From Lachnospiraceae bacterium P6B14 (GTDB taxonomy: Bacteria > Bacillota > Clostridia > Lachnospirales > Lachnospiraceae): DNA of 64,000 nt. A model generated the notes under the pieces. It was not told where the DNA came from, searched no databases, and was given only the letters and a program-made list of their open reading frames with translations. Positions 40,272-44,079 of this stretch are shown here, piece by piece. Each line of letters starts with the position of its first letter. The first letter of the stretch is position 1. The position numbers were made by a program, and so were the translations under genes. The stretch is taken from positions 1 through 64,000 of the forward strand of contig JHWZ01000011.1 in the NCBI GenBank assembly GCA_000687695.1, written 5' to 3'.

Positions 40272-41255
40272 CTATAGTTTTTTGAGGCGTATATCGTCAC
40301 CGATCAGTCTTAACATCTGATAGTTCTTTGCAATACGTGAAAAGATCCTCTCGGAATAAATCTCGTTCATATCCTGTATCGAAAGGTTTGTTGTGATGAT
40401 CGTCTGCAGGCGGTTCATCAGTCGTCTCTCGATAACATGATAGAGCTGAACGGTAGTAAAGCTGTTGGTAAGCTCGGTTCCGAGATCATCTACTATCAAA
40501 AGCTCGCACTCAGTTAAGTATGAGAACATGGAGCTTTTTTCCTGATAATTAAGTTCCTTGTCAAACTGTCTCGCTTCGAGTATCTCGAAAAATCTTATCG
40601 CGTCCAGATACAACACGGAGTGACCCTGAGCCAAAAGCTCGCCCGCGATACAGTGCGACAAAAATGTCTTGCCGATGCCGGTGTCTCCGTAGAGAAGGAG
40701 ATTGTCGAACTCATCATCAAAGGTTTTTACAAAACACATGCAGGAGTCATACACATCCTTCATGATCACGCGGGAGCTCATCCCGGTCAAAGGATCTGTC
40801 ATATCCTCCGGATATAAGGACAGATCGAACTTATCAAATGACTCCTCTTTGATGATGTCGCCGAGACCCGACTGTGAGTAAAAAAGCTCTATGGCCTGCT
40901 TCTTCAGACAGTGGCATTTTTCATTGCCGATGTAGCCGGTGTCCTTGCAGTCAGGGCACTCGTACTCAGGCTCGAGATAGTTCTCGTCAAAGCCGTGTGA
41001 CTTTAAAAGAGTCAGTCGTTCCGACTTCAGCAGTTCCATCCGCTTCTCAAATTCCTGTGAAGAAAGAGCGGTGTTTTTAGCATGGTTTTTGACATACTCA
41101 TAGGAAAGGTGACGCGCCCTGGCCTCCAGCTCGCGTAACTCAGGTATGTCTGCATATACCTTGATACGTCTTTCATCCAGCCCTGCCGAAGCACGTTGTC
41201 TGCGCTCTGAATAGCGGGCCATCAGACGGTCATATTGGCTGTTTGTGAGGTTCAT
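40272..41255 (-). CDS. dnaC: replicative helicase loader (DnaC/DnaI type ATPase)
   Basis: 327 residues. An N-terminal helical part leads into a zinc-type motif (YECPDCKDTGYIGNEKCHC), and then an AAA+ domain with Walker A LLLYGDTGIGKTFLSH and Walker B LLIVDDLGTEL. Such proteins load the replicative helicase at forks and the origin. DnaI of Bacillus has the same zinc site and ATPase layout. It overlaps the dnaD-like gene by four bases, so both primosome proteins are coupled. Confidence 0.88.
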   Translation of the reverse strand: MNLTNSQYDRLMARYSERRQRASAGLDERRIKVYADIPELRELEARARHLSYEYVKNHAKNTALSSQEFEKRMELLKSERLTLLKSHGFDENYLEPEYECPDCKDTGYIGNEKCHCLKKQAIELFYSQSGLGDIIKEESFDKFDLSLYPEDMTDPLTGMSSRVIMKDVYDSCMCFVKTFDDEFDNLLLYGDTGIGKTFLSHCIAGELLAQGHSVLYLDAIRFFEILEARQFDKELNYQEKSSMFSYLTECELLIVDDLGTELTNSFTTVQLYHVIERRLMNRLQTIITTNLSIQDMNEIYSERIFSRIAKNYQMLRLIGDDIRLKKL

Positions 41256-42370
41256 GGTGTTCCCTTTCTCTTTTGAAGAAATTGCAATTCCATATCTTCA
41301 TAATCCTCGTCAGTATAGTCGCGGCCTTTGAAGTTCTGGAAAGCATTGTTGTTCAAACGCTTTTTCTGCGCAGCGGAAGAACGCGTCTTTCTGGATTTAT
41401 GATATGCCTCTTCTATGCGGGCGATATCATCAAGTGTGTGTACATTTTTATCATGCCAACCGGCAAGTATTTTTGATACATAATTTAAGTTCGTATCGCC
41501 GGACTGGATCACTGTTTTTTTGCATGCCTCTGTGATTATCTCGTCGGAAAAATCATAAGCATCCCACGAATCGATTATCTCCTTTTCAGCCGGCGCGAAA
41601 TCTCTGTGGATCCCGAGCGCATGCGCAACCGGACGATACTTTCCGGCGAAGTCAGCGGCCTCTGCTCTCGCGTCAACTACGGTCTGGATTCCCTTCGTAG
41701 CCCAGTTTATCGCGATGGATTCGATGTAGCGGGTATTTGTTTTCTTACGCTCTGATGCCAAATCATAGAGATAGCAGATGAGATCTCCGGAAAAGCTGAG
41801 ATCACATATCAGATACATAACAAGCTGCATGTGTGCCGGAGTGACAGGCGCACCGAGTGCCTGCTCGATATGTGAAAGAGTTCGCTGCATCTCGACATCC
41901 TTTGATAGAGCCTCTATCTGCATCGGAGTATACTCGATACGTTCGGGGACGTTTACCGTCTGCTCCTTCGGCATCTCGTATTCCACTGCATCGCGCTCCG
42001 TGTTCAGCACACGAAGATGAGGCGCACCTGTCTCGATAAAGGTGTGCGTAGGATCGGGAGCAGCCTGAACCATATCGGGATTGTGAAGGGAGATGCCGAC
42101 GATGTGGTCGCCATCCATAAGCAGGGTCAGAAGTCCTTCCCTCTCCCAATAGTGCAAAGATCTAACGATATCGCGTTCAGTCAGATCCAGTCTGTCCGCC
42201 AAAGTCTCCACGGAAACCTGACCGGTGAGTCCCGGATTCTGGCTTGCCATGAGCAGGTACAGATAGATCTTGACGTTCTCGCCGTTTGCTCTCAATATAT
42301 AATGTAACAATATCTCATTCGGCACCTGGGTGTTTCCCGGTGTGCCGTCAGTGGTGATCATAAAACCCAT
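41252..42370 (-). CDS. dnaD: DnaD-domain primosome protein
   Basis: 372 residues. N-terminal winged-helix part (LHYILRANGENVKIYLYLLMASQ, VETLADRLDLTERDIVRSLHYWEREGLL), and DnaD/DnaB-like helical domains after about 150 (EKEIIDSWDAYDFSDEIITEACKK). The family helps DnaA and the loader open DNA and place the helicase. The start at 42370 is preferred: GAGGAG lies upstream of it and the promoter (42409-42437) starts the message at about 42402, so the GTG at 42406 is excluded. A DnaA-box array lies directly upstream. Confidence 0.85.
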   Translation of the reverse strand: MGFMITTDGTPGNTQVPNEILLHYILRANGENVKIYLYLLMASQNPGLTGQVSVETLADRLDLTERDIVRSLHYWEREGLLTLLMDGDHIVGISLHNPDMVQAAPDPTHTFIETGAPHLRVLNTERDAVEYEMPKEQTVNVPERIEYTPMQIEALSKDVEMQRTLSHIEQALGAPVTPAHMQLVMYLICDLSFSGDLICYLYDLASERKKTNTRYIESIAINWATKGIQTVVDARAEAADFAGKYRPVAHALGIHRDFAPAEKEIIDSWDAYDFSDEIITEACKKTVIQSGDTNLNYVSKILAGWHDKNVHTLDDIARIEEAYHKSRKTRSSAAQKKRLNNNAFQNFKGRDYTDEDYEDMELQFLQKRKGTP

Positions 42371-42408
42371 TCTCGGATCCACACTCCTCATAAAAACGAT
42401 TTGCACAT

Positions 42409-42437
42409 ATCATAACACAAAGTGAAAGAGGTTGCAA
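42409..42437 (-). promoter_or_regulatory. promoter of the dnaD-dnaC operon
   Basis: Minus strand TTGCAA (42432-42437) and TATGAT (42409-42414), spacer 17. DnaA boxes begin 38 bases upstream of the -35. Confidence 0.65.
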
Positions 42438-42474
42438 ACCCCCCGGAGTGTGCTCTTTTTATGTAGAAAACGGG

Positions 42475-42501
42475 TGTGGATAATGTGCATAATGTGGATA
42501 A
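42475..42501 (+). promoter_or_regulatory. three contiguous DnaA boxes
   Basis: TGTGGATAA (42475-42483), TGTGCATAA (42484-42492) and TGTGGATAA (42493-42501), each a perfect complement of the consensus TTATNCACA, head to tail with no base between. They lie upstream of the dnaD promoter. Confidence 0.85.
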
Positions 42502-42616
42502 CGTGATTTCGATCAGACTATTTATGTAGAAAAATATCCCGAAAGAGCCTTAAAATGGGAATTCTGATCAAGTATAATAAGAATTAAAGTTATGAACAGT
42601 AAAAAAGATCAAAAAA

Positions 42617-42674
42617 TTATCCACCACCTGATTGCGGATGAAAAAGTGCATAAGGTGGTGGATAATGTGCATAA
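42617..42674 (+). promoter_or_regulatory. second DnaA-box cluster
   Basis: TTATCCACC (42617-42625, 8 of 9), AGTGCATAA (42645-42653, 8 of 9), GGTGGATAA (42657-42665, 8 of 9) and TGTGCATAA (42666-42674, perfect; the last two touch). It ends two bases from the murC stop codon. The roughly 115 AT-rich bases between the clusters show no gene. Confidence 0.75.
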
Positions 42675-42675
42675 G

Positions 42676-44079
42676 TTACTCTGCTAAAAGGTCCTCTCCA
42701 ATATCTACTATGTTTCCGGCACCCATAGTTATCAACAAATCGCCGGCTAGTAAATTTTTTAAAATAAATTTTTTGATGTCCTCAAAACCGCCTAAATACG
42801 TTGCTTTTCCTCCATGGCTGTTTATGAGGTCCGCGATGTCTCTTGAAGAGATATCACCGGGGTCAGCTTCGCGTGCTGCATATATATCCGCGAGGATCAC
42901 GTGGTCTGCAGCAGAAAGTGCGTCCGCGAAGTCCGGTAAAAATGCCTTCGTTCTGGTGTAGGTGTGCGGCTGGAATGCGACCCAGAGCTTCTCGTGAGGG
43001 TATCTCTTGGCGGACTCCAGTGTGGCTCTGATCTCCGTCGGGTGATGAGCGTAGTCATCGATAATGGTAAAGCCGTGGGTGGTTCCCTTGTACTCAAACC
43101 TTCTTTCGGTACCCTTAAACTCGGAGAGTGCTGCGGATACTGCGTCGCCATCGATTCCTTTAGTATCAGCGAGAGCGATACATGCCAGAGTGTTTCCCAC
43201 GTTGTGCAGTCCGGGAACATTCAGCGTGTACGGTCCGGCCTCACCATTCGGAGTGACAGCCGTGAAGGATGCGTTGCCGTGGTCATTGTAGCTGATGTCC
43301 TTCGCGGTGTAGTCTGCAGGCTTCGTAGCAGAGAAGGTAAGTACCTTGCAGGAAAGACCCTCTGTGATCTCCTCATAGTTATCGATGTCCGCGTTTATGA
43401 TCAGGGTTCCGTCATCCGGTATGAGTGCCGCGAAACGCCTGAAGGAGTTGCGGATATCATCTATGTCTTTGAAGAAATCCATGTGATCTTCTTCTATATT
43501 AAGTATGATCCCGATGGTCGGGAAAAATTTCAAAAAGCTGTTGGTGTACTCACACGCTTCGGTAATGAAGTTCGGTGAGCGACCGATTCTTATGTTGCCT
43601 CCTATGACCGGAAGGATACCACCGACCGAGATGGTGGGGTCGAGTCCTGCGGACAAAAAAATATGTGAGGCGATGGAGGTCGTTGTCGTCTTGCCGTGAG
43701 TGCCGGCTATGGCTACGGCGGTCTGATAATTTTTCATGACCTGTCCGACGAGCTCAGCTCTCTCCATCATCGGCAGTCCTCTTTTTACGCACTCGGCGTA
43801 TTCGGGATTGTCAGGGTGGATGGCGGCAGTGTATACGACAGCATCGATATCATCGGTGATGTTTGCAGCTACCTGCTCATACGCTATGGTCACTCCGAGG
43901 CTCTCGAGATGCTCGGTGATAGGGCTTTTCGCGCGGTCGGAACCTGAGATGACAAAACCCATCGAGTGAAGCAGCTCGGCGAACCCGCTCATGCTGATAC
44001 CACCGATACCGATAAAGTGAATGTGCAGGGGATGAGAGGACTCGCCTGCTTTTTTGAAATCGATTGTATACATTTTCAT
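42676..44079 (-). CDS. murC: UDP-N-acetylmuramate--L-alanine ligase
   Basis: 467 residues. Adds L-Ala to UDP-MurNAc in peptidoglycan precursor synthesis. IHFIGIGGISMSGFAELLHS at the start, the ATP loop AIAGTHGKTTTTSI, NIEEDHMDFF, and DDYAHHPTEI in the C-terminal domain are all classic MurC. GGAGGAAATGAAA precedes the ATG at 44079. Own promoter upstream. Confidence 0.96.
   Translation of the reverse strand: MKMYTIDFKKAGESSHPLHIHFIGIGGISMSGFAELLHSMGFVISGSDRAKSPITEHLESLGVTIAYEQVAANITDDIDAVVYTAAIHPDNPEYAECVKRGLPMMERAELVGQVMKNYQTAVAIAGTHGKTTTTSIASHIFLSAGLDPTISVGGILPVIGGNIRIGRSPNFITEACEYTNSFLKFFPTIGIILNIEEDHMDFFKDIDDIRNSFRRFAALIPDDGTLIINADIDNYEEITEGLSCKVLTFSATKPADYTAKDISYNDHGNASFTAVTPNGEAGPYTLNVPGLHNVGNTLACIALADTKGIDGDAVSAALSEFKGTERRFEYKGTTHGFTIIDDYAHHPTEIRATLESAKRYPHEKLWVAFQPHTYTRTKAFLPDFADALSAADHVILADIYAAREADPGDISSRDIADLINSHGGKATYLGGFEDIKKFILKNLLAGDLLITMGAGNIVDIGEDLLAE

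Follow-up and report, generated by a model that had tools for sequence, protein, structure and literature searches.

In the window, the 64-kb stretch of DNA analyzed here, the gap between murC and dnaD together with the end of murC holds a conserved array of DnaA boxes in two modules. On balance we read the gap as a probable DnaA control region outside the origin, in which module II, next to dnaD, would regulate dnaD-dnaC and module I, at the murC end, would titrate DnaA.

Organization of the array

On the minus strand, in order of transcription, lie murC, a gap of ~270–310 bp, dnaD and a DnaC/DnaI-like ATPase gene (Table 1). Nine conserved box positions, each within one mismatch of TTATNCACA, span 42475–42737, and one of them lies inside murC. 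The preliminary description had counted seven boxes: the three perfect, zero-spaced boxes on the minus strand and their place upstream of the predicted dnaD promoter held up, while of the four reported at 42617–42674 all were found again but only that at 42666–42674 is perfect. The murC-dnaD boxes are confirmed as real, in an array larger than first described, with B6 and B1 counted as members on grounds of conservation. The GTG start of dnaD at 42406 is a mechanical call, and an ATGGG start common to the genus lies at ~42370.

Table 1 Features of the murC-dnaD region in the window
Feature	Position	Strand	Description	Basis
B1	42729..42737	+	TTATCAACA, one mismatch, murC 3' end, Leu-Ile codons	box scan; codon choice
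B2, cluster I	42666..42674	-	TTATGCACA, perfect, 1 nt past murC stop codon	
B3, cluster I	42657..42665	-	TTATCCACC, one mismatch, abuts B2; 5' arm of terminator hairpin	
B4, cluster I	42645..42653	-	TTATGCACT, one mismatch, 3 bp beyond B3	
B5	42617..42625	+	TTATCCACC, one mismatch, inverted; 3' arm of terminator hairpin	
B6	42590..42598	+	TTATGAACA, one mismatch, inverted and weak; position shared by most genus loci	
B7, cluster II	42493..42501	-	TTATCCACA, fits TTATNCACA	
B8, cluster II	42484..42492	-	TTATGCACA, fits TTATNCACA, abuts B7	
B9, cluster II	42475..42483	-	TTATCCACA, fits TTATNCACA, abuts B8; -35 hexamer 37 bp away	
murC intrinsic-terminator-type hairpin	42616..42666	-	built on B3 and B5	fold; compensatory pair changes
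Predicted dnaD promoter	42409..42437	-	TTGCAA-17-TATGAT, TG preceding second hexamer	consensus match
TTTTCTACA motif	42525..42533	-	ahead of cluster II	genus only
TTTTCTACA motif	42462..42470	-	past cluster II	genus only
dnaD-type gene	41252..42406	-	DnaD domain	PF07261/TIGR01446
Helicase-loader-type ATPase gene	40272..41255	-	IstB/DnaC/DnaI-like; overlaps dnaD end	
murC	42676..44079	-		

Nine boxes with at most one mismatch are packed into 270 bp, four of them perfect; when the window was resampled 60 times under a first-order Markov model, no resampling exceeded four such boxes or one perfect box. Across the whole window, TTATCCACA at one mismatch occurred 25 times (mean 14.3, reached by 2 of 100 shuffles), an enrichment only mild, such that the signal is the clustering. 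Genome-wide, TTATNCACA was barely enriched (97 matches vs. 78 for the reversed pattern), and tandem TTATCCACATTATCCACA with at most two mismatches occurred three times, always in the array (control 0). Perfect boxes elsewhere came no closer to one another than 934 bp in the list that we read by eye. The array is the only tight perfect-box cluster in the genome (35 contigs, 98% complete), and, as in non-oriC clusters, it comprises several boxes beyond chance outside oriC.

Conservation in the genus and family

We assessed conservation in the genus, where the DnaD search matched 36 of 39 genomes and 30 loci were read, one of which ran into a contig end and was excluded; six further genomes with a DnaD match contribute no locus to the count. 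The array was present in all 29 loci with upstream DNA on the contig, own genome included, and was kept while dnaD identity dropped as low as 33%. Each gap held 6 to 10 boxes in near-identical order and spacing (B1, 63, B2, 9, B3, 12, B4, 28, B5, 27–28, B6, then about 97–106 to the next run of abutting boxes), and in single loci individual boxes fell below the one-mismatch limit. A scan of named genomes with DnaD gave only four close loci.

Across the family, the spaced B2-B3-B4 pattern with one mismatch allowed matched 100 of 299 genomes, with zero matches for the reversed control throughout, and 29 of the 30 family pattern loci that we read lay between murC and dnaD. To remove selection for the array, we drew a sample of 100 family genomes picked by MurC alone. 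Of these, 94 were usable (four had no MurC at the cut-off, one ended at the contig end and one had a partial MurC), and 90 entered the MurC-end analysis, four more having no recognizable MurC C-terminal motif. dnaD was the next gene after murC in 93 of the 94, the remaining one being a contig end. A zero-spaced tandem pair occurred within 450 bp after murC in 71/94 genomes (reversed-pattern control 0/94), at least two perfect boxes in 61/94 (control 0) and four or more boxes at up to one mismatch in 71/94 (control 1), with a mean of 2.40 perfect boxes per genome vs. 0.01 in the reversed control; the genomes are related, so these counts are not independent. The tandem pair was absent in 23/94, though dnaD is the next gene. 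The preliminary description had held that boxes missing from the same gap in relatives would count against it, and the boxes were retained there in all 29 genus loci and, as tandem pairs, in 71 of the 94 family genomes.

The commonest words in the gap family-wide were fragments of boxes; an extended -10 (TGCTATAAT) and T-rich words of terminator type came next. The motif TTTTCTACA flanks cluster II on both sides and is conserved within the genus but not across the family. We rejected it as a family-wide element (TTCTACA in 7/90 family genomes vs. 4 in the reversed control); it is possibly a weak box or the site of another factor.

Distribution in the order and class

In the order sample, the B2-B3-B4 pattern matched 48 of 196 genomes, and 40 of 174 without the window's own family. 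Among 20 order loci that were read, 13 were at the murC end, one was with dnaD on a cut contig and six were elsewhere. Paired pattern matches on one contig were found in 14 order genomes, 161–166 bp apart in 13 and 140 bp apart in one, and the five of these that were read lay at murC-dnaD. In one other family of the order, three loci carried a second conserved tandem array, also with constant spacing, next to a bisphosphatase-like gene.

The class sample gave the pattern in 54 of 245 genomes. None of 27 class loci outside the order matched the murC, dnaD, dnaC, prs, dnaA or dnaN queries, which a divergent dnaD could escape; 18 had tsaD (gcp) within 1.5 kb and three had dnaB. According to the accessible text of PMC4447404, a DnaA peak in B. 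subtilis lies downstream of gcp and ydiF, so the tsaD flank of these 18 loci points to use of a B. subtilis-like place in other Clostridia orders, with murC-dnaD taking that role in the window's order. By this comparison, each lineage seems to maintain a single dedicated DnaA cluster, placed at a characteristic gene. Three loci from another order of the class had the tandem pattern ~50 bp past the 3' end of dnaB (replicative helicase), and three class loci had the box pattern beside a gene for a small zinc-ribbon-like protein.

Module II is phased to the predicted dnaD promoter

We determined the spacing between boxes and promoter in 41 family genomes that carry two tandem runs, taking the best consensus promoter past the last box. 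These promoters are consensus matches, with scores of 9.2–13.3 vs. 6.9–11.5 in shuffles. The predicted -35 lay 26–27 (seven genomes), 35–38 (11), 44–48 (17), 55–57 (four), 78 or 83 bp after the last box, with a period of 10.0 (R 0.83, a value that none of 5000 jittered sets reached); the 9-bp register of the boxes could account for part of this 10-bp stepping (R 0.66 at period 9). The 37 bp between last box and -35 in the window was identical, by eye, in several genus members despite differing leader length, and in the window the predicted dnaD promoter is clear of boxes. As at sda, the boxes are thus upstream of the promoter and not over it, at constrained spacing. An objection that the distance from the boxes to the dnaD start is too variable for promoter control was withdrawn, since it is leader length that varies, while the box-to-promoter distance is constrained.

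Activators that contact the RNA polymerase alpha subunit from upstream act at phased positions (-61.5, -71.5, -82.5 and -92.5). Because the boxes occupy phased positions like those of such polymerase-touching activators, and because the promoter is free of boxes, we prefer activation, which we judge somewhat more likely than repression or a null effect. DnaA would oligomerize on the abutting boxes B7–B9, and the oligomer would act on RNA polymerase at the dnaD promoter from ~60–95 bp ahead of the start site, keeping to one helical face, such that the supply of DnaD and of the DnaC/DnaI-type loader would track available DnaA, probably in its ATP-bound form. Module I (B1–B6) would add sites that titrate DnaA soon after initiation, as expected if the locus, being origin-proximal, is duplicated early. 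Timing of dnaD-dnaC and titration of DnaA had both been proposed from the window, and both survived tests at the level of sequence, from which we infer the function itself.

Another account would be a pure titration or DnaA-nucleotide control site, of the type of the B. subtilis clusters or E. coli datA and DARS, with dnaD nearby only through shared neighborhood; we consider this rather unlikely, though several results fit it. In three genomes of another family, B1 and cluster I lie behind murC while the next gene is convergent and dnaD is elsewhere, and no box was found within 600 bp upstream of the relocated dnaD. Retention of module I with murC but without dnaD in 3/3 genomes indicates that it has a role not tied to dnaD, and the lack of boxes at the relocated gene indicates that these genomes can dispense with DnaA control of dnaD. 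The same account would suit the tsaD (18/27) and dnaB (3/27) flanks in other Clostridia orders, and also the origin-proximal position of the array. Array and dnaA were on one contig in seven of 14 genomes tried, separated by 125, 134, 156, 257, 276, 287 and 406 kb (257 and 406 kb measured across the record start); in one further genome, dnaD lies ~33 kb from dnaA, a result that does not include the box status of its gap. Titration alone does not, however, need the quantized distance of cluster II to the dnaD promoter, with 37 bp in the window and several genus members.

Improbable in our judgment is that DnaA represses dnaD through oligomer growth or through looping between clusters I and II. 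The two clusters have the same orientation and lie 78–176 bp apart in the 41 genomes with a period peak of 11.1 (R 0.61), and several B. subtilis promoters are repressed by DnaA according to the available portion of PMC4447404. Against repression, no box overlaps the predicted promoter in the window, and R for the gap between the clusters is only 0.32 at 10.5. We retain activation from module II, combined with titration by module I, as the preferred reading.

Module I spans the murC end and its terminator

The first same-strand tandem run began 0–3 nt past the murC stop in 51 of 67 family genomes. For one set of loci examined for codon choice in murC, identical sequences were collapsed and two loci gave no MurC tail. 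The Leu codon of B1 was TTG in 68/90 family genomes vs. 7% of Leu codons elsewhere in murC, and its Ile codon was ATA in 75/90 vs. 16% of Ile codons elsewhere. Among genomes with tandem boxes, 56 of 67 had the exact B1 word, compared with 12 of 23 among those without. This retention of rare codons is selection on DNA inside a reading frame.

The one-mismatch boxes B3 and B5 double as the arms of the murC terminator hairpin, a 14-bp stem followed by T residues (-24 kcal/mol, z -5.16; none of 200 shuffles reached this stability). Across 25 distinct sequences from the genus (identical ones collapsed), ten pairs of the stem held in at least 24, inner pairs showed compensatory exchanges from A-T to C-G (17 and 8) and from G-C to A-T (19 and 6), and the outermost pairs were poorer (21 and 10 of 25). 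Since B3 and B5 form a hairpin with paired exchanges, one stretch serves in the genus as both terminator and box pair. It is very improbable that all boxes are a by-product of this terminator, conserved through the hairpin: B3 and B5 are its arms and do covary, but B1, B2, B4 and B7–B9 lie outside the stem and are equally conserved, and the outer 8 bp of the stem stay box-like, with only inner pairs covarying. We rejected a mere terminator by-product on these two grounds.

The array lies outside the replication origin

That the array is the chromosomal origin itself has next to no credence, even though no denser box cluster was found in the genome and the dnaA region has only three boxes with at most one mismatch. 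In the own genome, array and dnaA are on separate contigs. On the dnaA contig, GC skew rises around dnaA (56–57 kb), from roughly -0.1 or below to roughly +0.13 or above, whereas the window's contig shows positive values between 2 kb and its end, with a single exception at 40–42 kb (-0.032). In one complete genome (20 sampled stretches), the two flanks of the array (3.371 Mb) have negative skew (-0.219 and -0.119), and the sign turns positive past dnaA (3.496 Mb), with +0.135 at 3.616 Mb. With no sign change at the array in either genome, we rejected the array as the origin on GC skew, which supports the earlier statement that this is not the classic origin site. By eye, we saw no DnaA-trio and no AT-rich unwinding tract beside the array boxes; trio-like repeats and an AT-rich tract are kept at dnaA-dnaN instead.

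The dnaA region was also compared among relatives. Flanks of dnaA in other family genera had 6–13 boxes upstream (10 loci with full flanks) and 3–12 downstream (all 13 loci), and look like a normal bipartite origin. In the window's genus, they held 1–8 boxes in all (median 4; 26 loci, one with its upstream side cut). The dnaA-dnaN gap of the own genome (contig C12, 57321-57500) had zero boxes at up to one mismatch and keeps an AT-rich tract and conserved CTA triplet repeats, a candidate DnaA-trio; the box part of the origin seems eroded there. A tentative and fairly doubtful extension is that in the window's subclade the dnaA locus kept the unwinding element and lost nearly all canonical boxes, and that the murC-dnaD array became the only strong DnaA assembly site, setting free DnaA and loader supply. 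Were this true, initiation timing would be governed by a site physically apart from the place of unwinding.

In the DnaA recognition helix (RDHTTV), the near-universal Asp is replaced by Asn in 21 of 25 genus proteins (25 matched of 26) and kept in four; it is Asp in 13/13 other family genera. Among the genus loci, we saw no clear correlation between this change and the state of the dnaA region.

Comparison with known systems

To our knowledge, how initiation is timed in Gram-positives without Hda, SeqA, datA and DARS is an unsettled question, and we know of few non-origin DnaA sites described outside B. subtilis. Full-text searches of open-licence papers returned no description of a murC-dnaD DnaA-box array and no paper on DnaA boxes in Lachnospiraceae. 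A rigid, promoter-phased array before the helicase-loader operon, retained through a large family of gut bacteria, would connect DnaA level to loader supply in a way open to direct testing.

The array shares its box word and the presence of two box groups with bipartite oriC (rpmH-dnaA-dnaN), but differs in having no nearby dnaA or dnaN, no skew flip, and no trio repeats with an AT-rich unwinding tract. E. coli datA, DARS1 and DARS2 are likewise non-coding box sites outside oriC with conserved layout and position (PMC4585315 and PMC13220808), and a review describes these loci as absent in B. subtilis. The murC-dnaD array differs from them in box order and lineage.

The closest likeness is to B. 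subtilis, where, in the portions available of PMC5295017 and PMC13220808, there are six non-oriC DnaA-box clusters and deletion of all six leads to early initiation; DnaA peaks include gcp/ydiF, ywlC, yydA, ywcI and yqeG/sda. Like these clusters, the array comprises several TTATNCACA boxes outside oriC, and the gcp-side site is common to many other Clostridia. Unlike them, it lies at murC-dnaD, with two fixed modules kept across genera and several families of the order, a box in the murC coding end, an overlap with the murC terminator and phasing to the predicted promoter of the helicase-loader operon. At sda, DnaA activates from upstream boxes (PMC4447404, as far as its available text goes); the boxes here are also upstream of a promoter, from which we would expect similar activation, but the predicted target is dnaD-dnaC, the boxes abut head to tail, and spacing is quantized over 41 genera-level genomes. 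The array thus appears to be a new, rigid and lineage-wide form of the known non-origin DnaA-box clusters.
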